This document shows positions 5,069 to 13,371 of a stretch of 45,370 bases of DNA, one piece after another. Source of the stretch: Euzebyales bacterium (GTDB lineage: Bacteria > Actinomycetota > Nitriliruptoria > Euzebyales > JAHELV01). The stretch is taken from assembly GCA_036374135.1 (NCBI GenBank), contig DASUUK010000013.1, positions 1 through 45,370 of the forward strand, in the 5' to 3' direction. Below the pieces are notes generated by a model. That model was not told where the DNA came from, did not search any database, and saw only the letters and a list, made by a program, of their open reading frames with translations. The position numbers were made by a program, and so were the translations under genes. Positions within the stretch are counted from its first letter, which is position 1. The number at the start of each line of letters is the position of its first letter.

Positions 5069-5470
5069 TCAGCGTGAGCTGTGCGGCGCGCGGTCGGCCG
5101 GCTGGAACAGCTCGACCAGGTTGCCATCGGGGTCGGTCAGCAGGATCTGGCGACCACCGGGGCCCTCGACCGTCTCGCCGCGGAAGGTCAGGCCCGCGTC
5201 GCGCAACCGGCCGATCTCGGCGTCCAAGTCGTCGATGACGAGGTGGATGCGGTTGCGGCCCGCGGTCGCGGCGTCATCGGGCGTGGCGCGGGCGCCGGAG
5301 CTCGCGGGACCGGACAGCAGCAGTCGCAATCGGCCGCGGAGCACGTCGGCGAACGCGGGTGCGACGTTGGTGTTGACGCGGAAGCCGAGGTGGGTGGTGT
5401 AGAAGTCGACGGCGCGCTGTACGTCGTCGACGACGTACCGAACGCTCGCGTACTGATCTGACGTGGTCAT
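5069..5470 (-). CDS. VOC-superfamily (glyoxalase/bleomycin resistance-like) protein
   Basis: This 133-residue protein has a single vicinal-oxygen-chelate fold: an N-terminal beta-alpha half (VRYVVDDVQRAVDFYTTHLGFRV) and a C-terminal half ending in LTDPDGNLVELFQP. His and Glu residues at family metal positions (RIHLVID and NLVELFQ) are present. The ATG overlaps the last four bases of the ArsR-ArsC fusion gene (ATGA), so the two are translationally coupled. That linkage suggests a role in arsenic handling or detoxification. Characterised VOC proteins next to ars genes include the C-As lyase ArsI, but I do not see its cysteine pair: no Cys occurs in this protein. Function therefore remains open. 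Another VOC role, such as thiol conjugation or binding, is equally possible. Confidence 0.75.
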   Translation of the reverse strand: MTTSDQYASVRYVVDDVQRAVDFYTTHLGFRVNTNVAPAFADVLRGRLRLLLSGPASSGARATPDDAATAGRNRIHLVIDDLDAEIGRLRDAGLTFRGETVEGPGGRQILLTDPDGNLVELFQPADRAPHSSR

Positions 5471-6252
5471 GGTGCAGGCTCCTGACGGTCGTGTGCGGCC
5501 ATCGCCGCGAGCAGGTATCTGATGCGGGCATCGATGTCTGCTGCGATGCGCTGGAAAGCGGGGTACCCGCCGTCGTCGATCCGCGCCGGGTCGGGGATGC
5601 TCCAGTGGGCGCGGCGTGGGCGGTGGGGGAACACCGGACAGACCTCGCGAGCCCTGTCGCACAGGGTGATCACGCGGTCGAACTCGCGATCGGTCAGTGC
5701 GTCCAGGCTTCTGGGCCGCTGGCCGGTGATGTCGATGCCGAACGCCTCGCGCAGCACGCGGATGGCGTCGACGTGCAGGCGGTGCCCGGGCCGGCTGCCA
5801 GCGCTCGCCGCCCTCACCCGGCCGGCTGTGCGATGGCGCAGCAGCGCCTCGGCGATCGGTGAGCGGGCGGTGTTGCCCGTGCACACGAACAGCACGGTCG
5901 TGTCCCGGACCGCGGTGTGGGCGACCGGAGGCGTCGGTGGCGTAGCGATCGGGCCCAGCGCCGGGTGCAGCGCACGACCGCTGTCATTGAGCGCGCCCGC
6001 ACACCGGTCGAGATCGAGACGGTAGTAGCTCTCCCGACCGTCGAAGCTGCTGCGCGTGGCGGTGACGAGGCCACCGTCACGCAGCAGCCGCAGATGGTAG
6101 GACACCAGGTTCTGCGGCTCGTCGATCCGCGCAGCGAGCTCACGGACCCGGTAATCGCTCTCGCCGAGCTCGGCCAGCAGTGACCAGCGCAGCGGGTGCG
6201 CCGCCAGCTGGATGAACGCCGGCGGCGTTGACACTCGAGGCGAACGACCCAT
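5467..6252 (-). CDS. ArsR-type HTH fused to thioredoxin-type arsenate reductase (LMW-PTP fold)
   Basis: This 261-residue protein has two domains. Residues 10-105 form a winged-helix ArsR domain (HPLRWSLLAELGESDYRVRELAARI; recognition part NLVSYHLRLLRDGGLV). Residues 117-255 form an LMW-phosphatase-fold ArsC with the P-loop C124-TGNTARS, the relay cysteines C198 and C205 (TLCDRAREVCPVFP) and Asp221 in IPDPAR. The seven-residue spacing of the second and third cysteines matches Cys82/Cys89 of thioredoxin-coupled ArsC, which reduces arsenate to arsenite. The HTH domain lacks the ELCVC metal-binding cysteines of classical ArsR, so sensing may depend on the enzyme domain (inference). It leads a two-gene operon with the overlapping VOC gene. 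A palindromic operator lies just upstream. No arsenite efflux gene is in the window. Confidence 0.88.
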   Translation of the reverse strand: MGRSPRVSTPPAFIQLAAHPLRWSLLAELGESDYRVRELAARIDEPQNLVSYHLRLLRDGGLVTATRSSFDGRESYYRLDLDRCAGALNDSGRALHPALGPIATPPTPPVAHTAVRDTTVLFVCTGNTARSPIAEALLRHRTAGRVRAASAGSRPGHRLHVDAIRVLREAFGIDITGQRPRSLDALTDREFDRVITLCDRAREVCPVFPHRPRRAHWSIPDPARIDDGGYPAFQRIAADIDARIRYLLAAMAAHDRQEPAP

Positions 6253-6261
6253 GTGTCGGAC

Positions 6262-6300
6262 GATACATCAAACGAGACTGATGTATCAACTCTAATTGAT
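6262..6300. promoter_or_regulatory. Probable ArsR-type operator upstream of the arsR-arsC fusion
   Basis: Two inverted repeats lie 10-48 bp upstream of the fusion gene's start. GATACATCA (6262-6270) and TGATGTATC (6279-6287) are perfect 9-base arms around an 8-base spacer. ATCAA (6285-6289) and TTGAT (6296-6300) are 5-base arms around six bases and share the last bases of the first palindrome. The AT-rich arms stand out in this GC-rich DNA. They fit a dimeric winged-helix repressor, most simply the product of the adjacent gene acting on itself. No clear -35/-10 pair can be separated from the repeats. Confidence 0.65.
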
Positions 6301-6425
6301 GGAATGTCGAGGAACGACCATCGTCCGCAACCCGCTGGGACGAAACTCGCGTCACGCGCGGCATGGGATGCTCGACGAACGCGGCTGACCCGGCGTGCGG
6401 GGTGCGGGGTGCGGGGGTGCAGCGC

Positions 6426-8609
6426 TCACGGTGTGCGGAACTCGACGTGTAGCACGGGAGCTGCCGCCGCGAGTCCGTCGGACGACACGGCGACGCGTTC
6501 GCCGGTCCCCTCCACGATGAGCGCCAGCGGGTTGCCGGACGACCATCCGGGGCGCGCCACGACCTCTTCGACGACGGGCGCCAGCTGAGCGGTGCGCTGT
6601 GCCAACGTGCGGCTGCCCTTGGTCCACGGCGGTGGTTGCCACGCGACGGACGCGTTCGTCCTCGGTCGCGCCGTGATCGAGTACTTGACCGTCGTGAACT
6701 CAGGTGCGTCGTCCGCTGCATCGCCGGTTATCGTCAGGGCCGTCGCCACCGACGTCGTCTTGTCCGCCTGGAACTGCACGTAGGCATCGAGGATCGTCGC
6801 GCCCGGAGGAATCGTCACCCCGGCGAAGCGCAGACCGACAGCCCGTTGATCGTCACTACCGGTGGACGTGACGTCTGTCATGAGATCGAGGTTCGACTGC
6901 GAGGTCCAGATCCGACCGTTGGACCGTTCCTCGACGTCGCCCATGGATGTGTCGATCGGAATGTCCAGCGTCTGCGGGATCACGGGGTCCGGCGCGTTGT
7001 CGACCCCGACGTTCACCGGTGTCGACGTCACGCTCGTGCCGGCAGCGTTCGTCGCGACCGCAGTCAACGTGTGCTCGCCGTTGACCACCGTCCGCGTGTT
7101 CCAGTCCACCGACCAGCCGTCGCCGGCGTCCGTGTCCGTTCCGATGCTCGACTGGCCGGCGAGGAACTCGACGCTGACGACGTTCGCTGCCGTGGCGGTC
7201 ACGGGAACCGTCCCCGCCAGCGTGCTCCCGCCAGCAGGGCCGGAGATCGACACCGTGGGCGCGGCTGGCGGGGGCGGCGCCGAGGCCGCTCGCACGACCT
7301 GACGCCACATCCGCTGTGCGACACCGCGGTCGTCGACCATCAGCAGCAGGTCCGCCGCGGCGGAGACGGGATCGCGTGGCAGTGGAAGCCTGGTGTCGTA
7401 GATGTCCTCGGCCACCGGATCGCTGACCTGGAACACGCGTAGCTTCGACCACCTCTCGTCGCGGTCCGTCAGCGCATCGATGGGCGCATACCACAGCTCG
7501 GCGTGGGTGCGCGCCGTCGTACCGGCCGTCACGACGAGGAGTCGGGAGGCCGCATCGACAGTGATGACGGGCCGCTTCTGGTCGTTCGCTGTCGTGGAGT
7601 ACCGCTGGATCACGTGCTTGAGCCACCCACCCTGCGCCCGGCGTTCATAGACGATCAGCTGCGGGCGCGCCTTGGACCGGGCGTCGCCGAGAGGTTCGGT
7701 CTCGATGACGACGAACACGCGGTTCTCGAAGACGACCGCGGACAGTTCGTCGTCAGCGCGCTCGCCGCCCTCCCACGCCGGGAGGATCCCCGTCTCATCC
7801 GTCCAACTCGCCGGCGCGCTCCAGTTGGGTTGGTTCTGGTCCATGTGGAGGAAGTGGACGCGGGCCTGGCCACCGGGCGCCGTGCCGTTCTCCGTCGCGG
7901 CGAACCCCACGTGGGTCGCGCCCCCGACGGTGAACAGCACCCAGTGCCCCTCGCCGGCGGCGGCTGTCGTCTTCAGCGCCACGGGGTCGGGCCACGAGTC
8001 GCCCCCGTCCGTGGAGCGCGAGACGAGCAACTTGTTGTCGTAGTTGACGCCGGCCCACAGGTGGCCGTTCGGCGACTTGACGATGGTGACGCGTGCGCCG
8101 CCACGTAGCATGGTCGGGGCGGCGACCCCGCCCTTGCGGCTGGTCTCCACGTACCGGTCGGTGGCGGCATCGTACGAGAAGCGGCGGAATCGCGATGTTC
8201 CGGAGTTGCCACGCGAGAAAAAGGCGTACAGCGTCTTCGATCCGTCGTCCCAGTAGGCGTCCGGCGACGACGCCTTCGAGGTCTCGGCGAGCGCCACTGA
8301 CTTCGGTGAGCCGCCGAGGTCGTGCCACAGCCACCACTCCGACGAGCTCGCCGCTGGCGGCGACGCGGTCGGCATGAAGCCGTCCCAGCGTCGCCGTGCG
8401 GCATTCCACCAGTAGTTGCGCTGGTTGTTGTTCGCGTAATGGCCACCCAGCCCCGCGATATCGGTTCCGACGACCGGTTCGTTGAGGCCGAACGCGTTTT
8501 CGAGTGTGGGCTCAGCTGACTGGGCGCGCGCGTTCGGCGGCGCCGAGACGGCGACCGCGAACGGAACGACGAGCAGGAGCGCGACGACAGCGCGCATGGA
8601 TCGCTGCAT
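6426..8609 (-). CDS. Large secreted propeller protein with Ig-like and DNRLRE-type C-terminal domain
   Basis: This 727-residue protein starts with a signal peptide (MQRSMRAVVALLLVVPFAVAVSA, cleavage near ARAQSA). Residues about 45-440 look like a beta-propeller with one clear Asp-box (STDGGDSW) and repeated Trp/Tyr-rich strands. A Pro/Ala linker (ASAPPPPAAP) leads to an Ig-like domain near 445-535 (TVSISGPAGGSTLAGTVPVTATA, then GEHTLTAVATNAAGTS), as in many surface proteins. The last 190 residues (LDIPIDTSMGDVEE... VTIPPGATILDAYVQFQAD) resemble the jelly-roll domain found at the end of secreted enzymes and adhesins. No catalytic site was recognised. A role in binding extracellular polymers is inferred only. 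AAGGGG lies seven bases before the ATG. Confidence 0.75.
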   Translation of the reverse strand: MQRSMRAVVALLLVVPFAVAVSAPPNARAQSAEPTLENAFGLNEPVVGTDIAGLGGHYANNNQRNYWWNAARRRWDGFMPTASPPAASSSEWWLWHDLGGSPKSVALAETSKASSPDAYWDDGSKTLYAFFSRGNSGTSRFRRFSYDAATDRYVETSRKGGVAAPTMLRGGARVTIVKSPNGHLWAGVNYDNKLLVSRSTDGGDSWPDPVALKTTAAAGEGHWVLFTVGGATHVGFAATENGTAPGGQARVHFLHMDQNQPNWSAPASWTDETGILPAWEGGERADDELSAVVFENRVFVVIETEPLGDARSKARPQLIVYERRAQGGWLKHVIQRYSTTANDQKRPVITVDAASRLLVVTAGTTARTHAELWYAPIDALTDRDERWSKLRVFQVSDPVAEDIYDTRLPLPRDPVSAAADLLLMVDDRGVAQRMWRQVVRAASAPPPPAAPTVSISGPAGGSTLAGTVPVTATAANVVSVEFLAGQSSIGTDTDAGDGWSVDWNTRTVVNGEHTLTAVATNAAGTSVTSTPVNVGVDNAPDPVIPQTLDIPIDTSMGDVEERSNGRIWTSQSNLDLMTDVTSTGSDDQRAVGLRFAGVTIPPGATILDAYVQFQADKTTSVATALTITGDAADDAPEFTTVKYSITARPRTNASVAWQPPPWTKGSRTLAQRTAQLAPVVEEVVARPGWSSGNPLALIVEGTGERVAVSSDGLAAAAPVLHVEFRTP

Positions 8610-9962: not shown

Positions 9963-10781
9963 TCATGTGGACCGCTCCAAGTCGCGTGCACCGTCGGGTC
10001 CGTGCGAGTCGTCGCTCGTCGAGGCTCCGACCGGTCCGGTCGCATCCCGTCGGCGGCGACGCGGGTGCGTCAGCGAGTACAGAGTCGTCCTGACCATCGA
10101 GTTGGCGCGCAGGTTGCGCCAGTAGCGCCACTGCCTGCTGTGGTCCACGCAGATGCGGGTCATGGTCGGACGCGCTCCACCCGCGCCGACCCTGGCGGCC
10201 AGGTTGCGCAGCACCGTCCGCCACTGCCAGTCCTCGCCCCGGTGACCGCCGAGCGGCATGAGCAACTCATAGAAGGGATCGCTCGTCCGGATGAGTACGT
10301 CGATCGTCGCCGTTGGCGCATCACCCGCGCCGTCGCGGTCGACACTGAAGGTGATCCAGCCTGCGAAGCTGTGTCGTTCGGGTGTCATGAACGTGAAGCT
10401 GCGGTCGTCCTCGTACAGGACCACCACGCCGGTCGACCACAGCACGAGGGGTCCGATCCCGATGTTGATCAGCATCGAGTCGCCGACGGTCACGACCTCC
10501 TCGCCGCCGTAGATGTGCGCGGTGCGTGGCCAGAACGTGGCGAACTCCGCCTTCCAGATCGCGACGACCTGCTCCGGTGTGAGCGCCGCACCGTCGAGCG
10601 GCACCTGGTAGGTCTTGCGCCACAACTTTCCGAAGCCCTGGATCGGTGACGTGAGGTCGAGGTCCGCGACGTTGCGGACAAGTGCTCCCTCGGGGCGCCC
10701 GGAGAAAGAGATCCTCGATGAAGGCGACCACCGCCCCGCCTTCGGGCGACCCGCTCTGTCGGTGGGCGGCGTCGTGCTCAT
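9963..10781 (-). CDS. Conserved hypothetical protein, possible DUF1990/SRPBCC-like
   Basis: This 272-residue protein is the last gene of the minus-strand phosphatase-STAS operon. Its start overlaps the end of the second STAS gene by four bases (ATGA), so it is translationally coupled and may work with the partner-switching module. The core (residues about 40-215) is beta-rich, with IGIGPLVLWSTGVVVLYED, FTFMTPERHSFAGWITFSVD and IDVLIRTSDPFYELLMPL. That order loosely resembles DUF1990/SRPBCC-type lipid- or ligand-binding folds; this is a weak impression. Both ends are low-complexity and basic or acidic. No signal peptide, membrane helix or catalytic motif was recognised. Confidence 0.6.
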   Translation of the reverse strand: MSTTPPTDRAGRPKAGRWSPSSRISFSGRPEGALVRNVADLDLTSPIQGFGKLWRKTYQVPLDGAALTPEQVVAIWKAEFATFWPRTAHIYGGEEVVTVGDSMLINIGIGPLVLWSTGVVVLYEDDRSFTFMTPERHSFAGWITFSVDRDGAGDAPTATIDVLIRTSDPFYELLMPLGGHRGEDWQWRTVLRNLAARVGAGGARPTMTRICVDHSRQWRYWRNLRANSMVRTTLYSLTHPRRRRRDATGPVGASTSDDSHGPDGARDLERST

Positions 10782-11155
10782 CGCCGCGACCCCGTCGCGG
10801 CGAGCGCGGCGGTCTCGTCGTCGTACAGCTCGATCGCCTCGTCCAGTCTCGTCAGCGCGAATATCTGGCGATAGTGCCTGTCCAAGCCGAAGGCGACGAG
10901 CCGCTGCCGTTGGCGGTTGGCGCGCACGAGCAGGGTGACCAGCAGTCCGATGCCACCGCTGTTCATGTAGTCCAGGCCCGTGAAGTCCAGCCCGACGGTG
11001 TCGATGTCCCCGTCGCTGGCACGCTCGAACGCGGCGGTCATCGCTGCCTCGGACCGTGACGTCACCTCAGGCGGCATCGCGATCACCAGTAGGCCGCGCG
11101 TCGGACGGCGGGTGTCCACCGGCGTCGGTGATGATGGGACGGTCGTGTCGGTCAT
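10778..11155 (-). CDS. STAS-domain anti-anti-sigma factor-like protein
   Basis: This 125-residue protein has one STAS domain (residues about 20-115). The key segment is LDFTGLDYMNSGGIGLLVTLLVRA, where Ser66 is at the position phosphorylated by RsbW/SpoIIAB-type kinases in SpoIIAA/RsbV homologues. It overlaps both neighbours by four bases (ATGA at each end). It is the second STAS protein of the operon and shares the ending RQIFALTRLDEAIELYDDE with the preceding gene product (REVFAVTRLADYIEVFDDE), so the two are paralogues. An upstream in-frame extension to 11335 overlaps that gene and was rejected. Likely role: reversible phospho-switch with the HATPase domain encoded first in the operon. Confidence 0.85.
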   Translation of the reverse strand: MTDTTVPSSPTPVDTRRPTRGLLVIAMPPEVTSRSEAAMTAAFERASDGDIDTVGLDFTGLDYMNSGGIGLLVTLLVRANRQRQRLVAFGLDRHYRQIFALTRLDEAIELYDDETAALAATGSRR

Positions 11156-11577
11156 GGTGCGCCTCCTGCCTGCGCATCGCCTGATGCATTCGGATCCGGT
11201 TGTCGTTCTGCGTCCGCGCCGGCGGACGAACCGCCCAGCCCGTGTAGTGCCTGCTGCTCGTCGTCGAACACTTCGATGTAGTCGGCCAGGCGTGTCACGG
11301 CGAAGACCTCGCGGTAGTGGGGGGTGAGGCCGCATGCGGCCATGCGTCGGCCCTTCCGCCGTGCTCGCGCGAGCAGGCTCACCAGCACCGCGATGCCGGT
11401 GGAGTTGATGTACTCGACCTCGGCGAAATCGAGCAGCAGGGCGTCGGGGCCCATGGCGACCGCGATGTCATACGCCTCGGTCAGGTCATGGGTCGCCTGT
11501 CCGGTCACGTCGCCTGACAGCGTCAGCACCGCCACCGACCACAGGTGACGCACACTGACGTCAACGGTCTTGAGCAT
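11152..11577 (-). CDS. STAS-domain anti-anti-sigma factor-like protein
   Basis: This 141-residue protein has a STAS domain at residues 5-110. Ser59 in EYINSTGIAVLVSLLA is at the canonical phosphorylation site. It starts inside the last 17 bases of the phosphatase/kinase fusion gene and ends in a four-base overlap with the second STAS gene. A Ser/Gly/Asp-rich tail of about 25 residues follows the domain. In the Bacillus and mycobacterial partner-switch paradigm, the unphosphorylated protein binds the anti-sigma kinase and the PP2C phosphatase resets it. All these parts are encoded together here. No sigma factor gene is in the window, so the final target is unknown. Confidence 0.87.
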   Translation of the reverse strand: MLKTVDVSVRHLWSVAVLTLSGDVTGQATHDLTEAYDIAVAMGPDALLLDFAEVEYINSTGIAVLVSLLARARRKGRRMAACGLTPHYREVFAVTRLADYIEVFDDEQQALHGLGGSSAGADAERQPDPNASGDAQAGGAP

Positions 11578-13183
11578 TGCGTCCTCCTCGACGTGTGGTG
11601 GCCACAGTCAGCTCGACCGTGTGCTGGTGATTGCCGTCGATGACATGTACGTCGTCGACCATGTTCCGGATGAGGAACAACCCCCAGCCACGCGCGTGCT
11701 GGAGGCCCGCCAGCTTGGCGTCGAGGTCCGGCTCCTCGAGCGCGACGCCGTCGGTGCCCTGGCCGTGGTCGGTGACGCGCACGATGACGCTGTCGTCGTC
11801 GGCGCACACCTCGACGCGCACGGACAGGTGCGGATCGTTGCCGTTGCCGTGCTCGATCGCGTTCATCGTCGCCTCGCCAACAGCCGTGGCGAGACGCTCG
11901 AGCACGATCCCGTCGAGATCGCGCCCACGCAGTGCATCAGTGACTCCAGCGATGGCCCGGCGCTCGTTGCCGGGCGCGCTCGGGAGCGTGAAGTCCGCCA
12001 AGCGGATCGGCGCGCGCGCCTCGGGGACGGCTCTCCCGGACCGGGCGACCGTGACGAGCGTGATGTCGTCCTCCTGCTCGGCGCCGTCGGGAACGAACAC
12101 GGCGAGCGCCTGGAGCACCGTGTCGATGAGTCGGCTGGGGTCGGCGTCGGACCCGACCAGCTCCGCCAGACGATCGAAGCCGAACATCGACCGGCCCGGG
12201 CCGTGTGCCTCGGCCACGCCGTCGCTGTGGAGCAGGACCTGGTCGCCTGGTGCGAGCACGGTCTCGGCCTCGTCGTACCGCATGTCGGGCAGCAGGCCCA
12301 GTGGCATGCCGCGGGCCCTGAGCTCGCGCACGGTGCCGTCGGTCGCACGCACGTACGGGACGGGGTGCCCGGCGTTGGCGAATCGAAGCACACCGGTCGC
12401 CGGATCCAACACGGCGTACATGCAGGTGACGAACATGTTGGCGGGCATCTCGGAGACCAGGAGCTCGTTGGCGCGCGCGAGCACGTCTCCGGGTGCGGGC
12501 AGCCTTGGTGCGTCACCGCGCAGGATCGAGTGCGTCTTGGCCATGATCAGGGCCGCGGGGACACCCTTGTCGGTGACGTCGCCGACGACGATGCCGAGCC
12601 GTCCGTCGGGGAGTTCGATGAAGTCGTAGAAGTCGCCGCCGACCTCACGCGCCGGGCGGTAGAACGCCTCGACGTGCCAGCCGTCGAGTCGGGGAAGCTC
12701 GCGGGGCAGGAACTGCTGCTGGATGAGTGTGGCGACCCGCAGCTCCTGCTCGATCCGCGACCGCTCCCGCACCTGGTCGTCATGCTGGCGCACCAGTTGG
12801 GCGATGCGCACCGCGGGTGCGGCGTGGCCAGCCAGCTCCTCCAGCAGCCGGCGGTCCTCCGACGAGTAGCTCTGCTCGGAGCGCCGTGGCCCGAGGTTGA
12901 GCAGACCGAGCAGCTCACCCTGCGTGACCAGTGGGACGACCAGCACCACACCTGCGTCGCGCAGCGCGCGGACGGCTGGGGTGTCGAGCTGGAGCTGCTG
13001 CAGGTCGACCGGCCCGCCCGCACGTGCCATGTAGGCCAGCAACGGATCATCGTCTGCGATGTCGACCGCGTTGGCCGGCGCGGGCTCGTCGAGGACCGTC
13101 GCGGGCTCGGTCACGCTCGCCGACCGGGCATCATCGGCCCGGACGCGTCGCCCCCACCAGCGAAGTCTCATCGCCGCACTCAT
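11561..13183 (-). CDS. RsbU-like PP2C phosphatase fused to RsbW-like histidine-kinase-type ATPase domain
   Basis: This 540-residue protein has three parts. A short GAF-like N-terminus (residues about 45-130; LVVPLVTQGELLGLLNLGPR) leads through a coiled-coil linker to a SpoIIE-type PP2C domain (about 165-365). That domain has VGGDFYDFIELPDGR and GDVTDKGVPAALIMAK, with Asp184 and Asp202 as expected metal ligands, plus EDDITLVTVAR. The C-terminal HATPase_c domain (about 400-535) has an N-box (AVGEATMNAIEHGNG), DHGQG and a GWGLFLI segment. It therefore carries both the phosphatase and the anti-sigma kinase activity of a partner switch. ATG 13183 was chosen because GAGGAGGG lies 11 bases upstream; ATG 13171 is possible. 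It heads the four-gene overlapping operon. Confidence 0.88.
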   Translation of the reverse strand: MSAAMRLRWWGRRVRADDARSASVTEPATVLDEPAPANAVDIADDDPLLAYMARAGGPVDLQQLQLDTPAVRALRDAGVVLVVPLVTQGELLGLLNLGPRRSEQSYSSEDRRLLEELAGHAAPAVRIAQLVRQHDDQVRERSRIEQELRVATLIQQQFLPRELPRLDGWHVEAFYRPAREVGGDFYDFIELPDGRLGIVVGDVTDKGVPAALIMAKTHSILRGDAPRLPAPGDVLARANELLVSEMPANMFVTCMYAVLDPATGVLRFANAGHPVPYVRATDGTVRELRARGMPLGLLPDMRYDEAETVLAPGDQVLLHSDGVAEAHGPGRSMFGFDRLAELVGSDADPSRLIDTVLQALAVFVPDGAEQEDDITLVTVARSGRAVPEARAPIRLADFTLPSAPGNERRAIAGVTDALRGRDLDGIVLERLATAVGEATMNAIEHGNGNDPHLSVRVEVCADDDSVIVRVTDHGQGTDGVALEEPDLDAKLAGLQHARGWGLFLIRNMVDDVHVIDGNHQHTVELTVATTRRGGRNAQDR

Positions 13184-13371
13184 GCTCGCTCGGTCCCTCC
13201 TCGGCCTCGCCCGGCAGGGGCGACGACGTGGGACGAGCATGCGGCCACATCGCAACGAGAACGTGACGGGCCGCGACAGTGCGCCGATTCCTGTGCGAAC
13301 GGCGACGCTGCGACCGTCGCGGCCGCGGCGCCGTAACGACTCCGGAACGCCCGCCGACCATCATCGGCTCC

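Follow-up and report, generated by a model that had tools for sequence, protein, structure and literature searches.

The window, which is the whole 45,370-nucleotide stretch of DNA that was analysed, carries on its minus strand a gene for a fused repressor and reductase, arsRC, followed by a gene for a VOC protein and preceded by a promoter with an inverted repeat in its spacer. The features are as follows.

5467..6252, minus strand: arsRC, an ArsR winged-helix repressor joined to a thioredoxin-type ArsC, 261 aa (ORF, Pfam, NCBIfam, alignment, model)
5959..6252, minus strand: ArsR half, residues 1-98 (Pfam HTH_20/HTH_5, model secondary structure, alignment)
5503..5904, minus strand: ArsC half, residues 117-250, LMW-PTP fold (Pfam, alignment, fold search)
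5069..5470, minus strand: VOC (glyoxalase/bleomycin-resistance fold) protein, 133 aa (ORF, Pfam; directly downstream in 10 of 12 orthologous loci)
6260..6289, minus strand: predicted promoter, -35 TTGATA, 18-nt spacer, -10 TATCGT (promoter scan)
6264..6285, no strand: operator O1, perfect inverted repeat TACATCA-N8-TGATGTA (genome pattern scan; 12 of 12 orthologues)
6282..6303, no strand: possible imperfect operator O2, 3 mismatches, overlapping O1 and the -35 (pattern scan; adjacency only)

The arsRC gene and its operator

Residues 18-64 of ArsRC match HTH_20 and HTH_5, and residues 120-248 match LMWPc, all above Pfam cut-offs, placing an ArsR and an ArsC in one chain as in the actinobacterial ArsR-ArsC fusions. 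Twelve orthologues of the window's class were found (the window, its congener G029, Nonomuraea, Thermocrispum, and eight further genomes of the phylum or class). They are 44-65% identical, and the two halves share a reading frame in every one, which shows the fusion to be real; chance read-through or a frame error was ruled out. The initial annotation, which had placed an ArsR HTH fused to ArsC at 5467-6252 and an operator at 6262-6300, was borne out on both counts. The best NCBIfam matches were thioredoxin ArsC (E 1.8e-21) and HTH_metalloreg (3.4e-13), with a weak match to BigR, a thiol-sensing ArsR, and the TIGR02691 equivalog model scored 75 bits against a cut-off of 174; because all NCBIfam scores fell below the NCBI cut-offs, ArsRC is considered a divergent family member. 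An AlphaFold model of the window ArsRC as a monomer was built with 41 related fusions, producing a prediction with pLDDT 92 and pTM 0.88, confident in both halves, with the helices and wing of an ArsR/SmtB winged helix, the recognition helix at residues 47-59, and alpha5 at residues 81-95. In a fold search, the matches listed were taken up by the ArsC half, with arsenate reductases (Z 20-21) ahead of LMW phosphatases (Z 17-18.6) and pI258 ArsC the closest of those listed (Z 21).

The promoter scan of the region found one promoter against 0.1 expected, and O1 fills the spacer between its -35 and -10, an inverted-repeat operator over the gene's own promoter of the ArsR/SmtB kind, assigned here by sequence only. 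O1 is a 14/14 inverted repeat, and no other site with fewer than 3 mismatches was found in the 3.98-Mb genome; a wider O1 regulon there was accordingly rejected, the reversed control pattern having given more matches. The search pattern was derived from the window and Thermocrispum, so the remaining ten orthologues are independent tests of O1, which was found upstream of 12/12 orthologues 150-186 bases ahead of the HTH motif and with 11-14 matches to the 14 pattern positions, while none of 2000 random windows per locus matched as well. Because O1 is conserved at the same promoter position in all 12, ArsRC very likely represses its own operon. In the Microbacterium sp. A33 study of Achour-Rokbani and co-workers (2010), ArsRC2 is likewise said to repress its own operon. 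O2 overlaps O1 by four bases, which suggests cooperative binding.

In G407 and G154, arsRC and an APC permease gene are transcribed divergently, with O1 between them. An APC-type permease, 62-75% identical between genomes, neighbours ArsRC in four of them and, in one more, an ArsC1'-like gene (L077:5807, L078:8072, L079:6069, L073:4323, L046:374), and may be an overlooked arsenic-linked transporter; an orthologue in the window genome was rejected, the match there being 27% only.

The VOC start ATG overlaps the arsRC stop (ATGA), and the same VOC gene, 57-79% identical across arsRC loci, lies directly 3' of arsRC in 10/12 of them; in G087 it is seemingly truncated after about 78 residues. The VOC protein has neither the usual first metal-ligand histidine nor any cysteine, and no cysteine is conserved in its family. 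Assignment as an ArsI C-As lyase was rejected, as it is without the cysteine pair and without a match to CadI.

No arsenic transport or detoxification genes were found beside arsRC within the window, and Acr3/SBF, ArsB, ArsP, and ArsJ were not found in the 96%-complete window genome (G000), so the arsenic link of the window protein rests on homology. Three of the 12 orthologues are found among arsenic genes. Those of G407 and G154 are close to arsR-acr3-arsC-cadI, and that of G024 adjoins an aquaporin gene and another fusion, one of the sister class. An ars-type aquaporin in the window genome was rejected; its sole MIP channel adjoins a dihydroxyacetone-kinase-like gene and is therefore read as a glycerol facilitator. 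Elsewhere in the window, positions 10778-13255 on the minus strand encode, by reading only, a SpoIIE-type phosphatase with a serine-kinase-like C-terminus, then two anti-sigma-factor-antagonist-like genes. A search of the window with Rfam gave no structured RNA.

Cysteines of the two actinobacterial classes

The window ArsRC has four cysteines, whose codons are listed below with their conservation as counted by alignment; the comparison took in about 45 relatives overall.

6001..6003, minus strand: Cys84 codon, start of alpha5; 11 of 12 orthologues, 0 of 30 sister-class fusions
5881..5883, minus strand: Cys124 codon, P-loop nucleophile, equivalent to Cys10 of pI258 ArsC; 41 of 41 fusions
5659..5661, minus strand: Cys198 codon, equivalent to Cys82 of pI258 ArsC; 41 of 41 fusions
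5638..5640, minus strand: Cys205 codon, equivalent to Cys89 of pI258 ArsC; 8 of 12 orthologues, 0 of 30 sister-class fusions

Cys124, Cys198, and Cys205 align with the catalytic cysteines of the thioredoxin-type ArsC of D. indicus, B. subtilis, and S. aureus pI258, and the window protein has the CX5R P-loop that goes with them in the pI258 type; the orthologue alignment shows Arg130 of this loop and the HW(S)xPDP motif to be preserved. Among the 12 orthologues, Cys124 and Cys198 are present in 12/12, Cys84 in 11/12, and Cys205 in 8/12, with the absences of Cys205 falling at three places in the tree (Thermocrispum, Nonomuraea, and the G407/G154 pair); the residue was lost about three times in this class. 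In an alignment of 41 actinobacterial fusions (11 of the window's class, 30 of the sister class), Cys124 and Cys198 are invariant and no other cysteine column is common to all, none in the HTH included, while Cys205 occurs in 8/11 of the window's class versus 0/30 of the sister class. A conserved third cysteine as the key to ArsRC was thus ruled out, and since Cys205 is missing in 4/12 orthologues and 30/30 sister-class fusions, a three-cysteine redox cycle is not the conserved basis of sensing. The statement in the initial annotation that the ArsC domain keeps all three redox cysteines therefore describes the window protein and 7 of the 11 other orthologues, not the class. Its other statement, that the HTH is without metal cysteines, holds for the known sites: the ELCVCDL position reads DYRVREL, cysteine-free, and none of the known three-cysteine As(III) sites (types 1-3, ArArsR; PMC11868830) was found in the ArsR half. 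The HTH half does have a cysteine of its own, Cys84, kept in 11/12 orthologues, which had been overlooked and is a candidate partner.

The Cys10-Cys82 step of the pI258 ArsC mechanism is independent of Cys89. The pI258 C89L mutant, crystallised as a disulfide intermediate (PDB 1lk0, entry title), is a laboratory counterpart of the fusions without Cys205.

Sister-class fusions are frequent in Actinomycetes and in the taxonomic class to which the window belongs, and are found with acr3, aquaporin, cadI, or trxB. By alignment, they have the equivalents of Cys124 and Cys198 in 30/30 and those of Cys205 and Cys84 in 0/30, and in 22/30 the Cys124 and Cys198 equivalents are the only cysteines of the protein, so that any thiol-based arsenic response in those 22 must go through these two. 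At 22/30 sister-class loci, a separate ArsC that has the full set of three cysteines follows downstream, and at one more it is cut by the locus end, which argues that the third cysteine was dropped by the fused domain and not by ArsC generally. Taken together, the two counts make the fused ArsC look like a sensor, not a working enzyme.

The window genome holds a second fusion, of the sister class (G000:C57:8059-8757, 232 aa). About 14 bases after it lies a Cg_ArsC1'-like ArsC, helical in its N-terminal region and with all three cysteines, the pair spanning G000:C57:8059-9427 (L005); this genome, 96% complete, thus has two ArsR-ArsC fusions and one ArsC1'-like reductase, with no recognised arsenite exporter found. 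Next to this cassette and transcribed away from it (L005:4675-7744, minus strand) are a gene for a response-regulator domain joined to a thioredoxin-reductase-like flavoprotein, whose reading frame is apparently broken near 6419-6734, and a sensor-kinase-like gene.

Known systems and independent fusions

The ArsR-ArsC fusion architecture is already known, and what is new here is the comparative evidence on how ArsRC works. That similar fusions exist in actinobacteria, as stated in the initial annotation, agrees with PMC6514093, which classes ArsC by cofactor and notes fused clusters (C4 and C7), and with PMC6205960, which also lists them. These fusions, matched here by architecture, share the domain order (HTH, then thioredoxin-type ArsC), and the known ones stand in arsenic loci, whereas the window's class has a VOC partner, its own operator, and a conserved Cys84, and is often away from arsenic genes; in the accessible portions of the two papers, neither loss of the third cysteine nor a proposal of ArsC as sensor was found. 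In Leptospirillum ferriphilum, too, one gene within an ars locus encodes both an ArsR and an ArsC part, and the expression of this ArsRC is raised from 30 min after arsenite shock onwards; it belongs to another phylum and lies with arsU and arsB, the comparison being by description only (PMC4443643).

Compared with S. aureus pI258 ArsC, B. subtilis ArsC, and D. indicus ArsC2, the ArsC half has the same fold (Z 20-21), the HW..DP motif, and, in the window copy, the three redox cysteines, but those proteins are stand-alone enzymes, and the fusions can do without the third cysteine. With R773 ArsR, AfArsR, CgArsR, and ArArsR, which read trivalent arsenic through the repressor's own cysteines (PMC11868830), ArsRC shares the winged helix, autorepression, and a promoter-overlapping operator, but it has none of their cysteine sites, and ArsC would take the place of the sensor. 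ArsR-family repressors suggested to answer arsenate itself include TtSmtB of Thermus thermophilus, an arsenate sensor (PMC5658604), and ArsR of the V. cholerae var operon, a proposed As(V) sensor (PMC9601151); unlike ArsRC, both are of plain ArsR/SmtB type, and neither is described with an ArsC domain. No proposal of an ArsC domain as a repressor's arsenate sensor was found in the literature searched, which took in few subscription journals.

On Rhodobacterales plasmids, an ArsRC heads arsRC-gapdh-arsJ (L085, L086, L087, L088). The fused ArsC domains of these proteins group with stand-alone proteobacterial ArsC, apart from the actinobacterial fusions (98-100% bootstrap), which indicates that the ArsR-ArsC fusion arose at least twice. 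GAPDH-ArsJ removes arsenate as an arsenylated sugar phosphate and does not need arsenite (PMC9601151, PMC6205960); since the pathway acts on arsenate itself, a repressor in front of gapdh-arsJ should answer arsenate. The Neotabrizicola ArsRC has all its cysteines, three, within ArsC. In two other fusions of this group, the ArsR half retains a CC...C like that of AfArsR, and there the HTH may therefore sense arsenite itself.

Candidate signals and mechanism

That ArsC senses and ArsR acts is the simplest reading, because the HTH is without a known arsenic site, ArsC alone has a recognised arsenate pocket, and Cys124 and Cys198 alone are universal. On sequence evidence, we give an even chance to the ArsC half being the arsenic sensor of the autorepressor ArsRC through a Cys124-Cys198 half-cycle. 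The one-protein sensor suggested by the initial annotation survives in this form, with ArsC as sensor supported by the 41/41 conservation of the two cysteines and by sister fusions, many with no further cysteine and many with a separate complete ArsC alongside; a relay through three cysteines does not, as it is not conserved.

For the ligand, the chemistry, and the allostery of the switch, we infer the following sequence of events. ArsRC would autoregulate the operon formed by the two genes arsRC and VOC, transcription most probably being blocked by a dimer bound to the inverted repeat in the promoter spacer. Arsenate would enter the P-loop (Cys124, Arg130) and react with Cys124, after which Cys198 would attack, as in the first half-cycle of ArsC, and the resulting Cys124-Cys198 disulfide, or a cysteine-bound arsenic state, may alter the ArsC conformation. 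This change could pass through the linker and alpha5 (with Cys84 in the window's class) and weaken the hold of the HTH dimer on DNA. With Cys205, which the window protein has, full thioredoxin-dependent turnover and reset may be possible, and where it is missing, the domain would act as a single-turnover latch. More tentatively, ArsC may have been made the repressor's sensory half by at least two independent fusions, reading arsenate(V) through half of the reductase cycle, with the two-cysteine forms as single-turnover disulfide latches that release DNA.

A different signal, which we regard as unlikely but take most seriously among the alternatives, is arsenite bound at an unusual site, with As(III) held jointly by Cys84 and by Cys124/Cys198, these coming from the ArsC half or from the partner chain; the As(III) would be made by ArsRC or another ArsC, and the fusion would merely shorten the path from product to sensor. 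Cys84 is kept in 11/12 orthologues, including all four without Cys205, the AfArsR site (Cys95/96/102) also lies on alpha5, and new As(III) sites arose repeatedly on ArsR (PMC11868830). However, one HTH cysteine alone cannot make the usual three-coordinate site, Cys84 is present in 0/30 sister-class fusions, and the orthologue G099 has Tyr at this position.

A response to thiol oxidation or an electrophile instead of arsenic, with the ArsC half as a redox switch and the VOC protein handling the electrophile or binding a toxic compound, is less probable still. It would fit the VOC gene being the only constant partner in most orthologous loci (10/12), the weak match to the thiol-sensing BigR, and the window genome, in which a recognised arsenite exporter was not found, but 3/12 orthologues lie within arsenic loci, the retained Arg130 and HW(S)xPDP would be needless for a pure thiol switch, and the VOC family is without a conserved cysteine. 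Least probable, and only slightly credible, is a plain bifunctional protein in which ArsC is the operon's arsenate reductase, the HTH is constitutive or answers an unrelated ligand, and the fusion has no signalling meaning, since Cys205 was lost about three times and is missing in the sister class while Cys124 and Cys198 never vary, and a separate complete ArsC stands beside most sister fusions, although Cys124, Cys198, and Cys205 are all present in the window protein and in 7 more orthologues, and such fusions are annotated as thioredoxin-dependent ArsC in PMC6514093. The same set of cysteines is a point against ArsC as sensor, as the window ArsRC might be no more than an enzyme; so are the window locus, where no arsenic gene was found nearby, and the two Rhodobacterales fusions with CC...C in the ArsR half.

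Sensing by the ArsC half is an idea that the two-cysteine sister proteins make directly testable. If it is true, ArsRC would sense arsenate specifically, in contrast to known ArsR proteins with their sites for trivalent arsenic, and would be a simple part for arsenate biosensors. An enzyme would then have been reused as a detector by keeping half its catalytic cycle, which would bear on how bacteria sense arsenate (PMC9601151).
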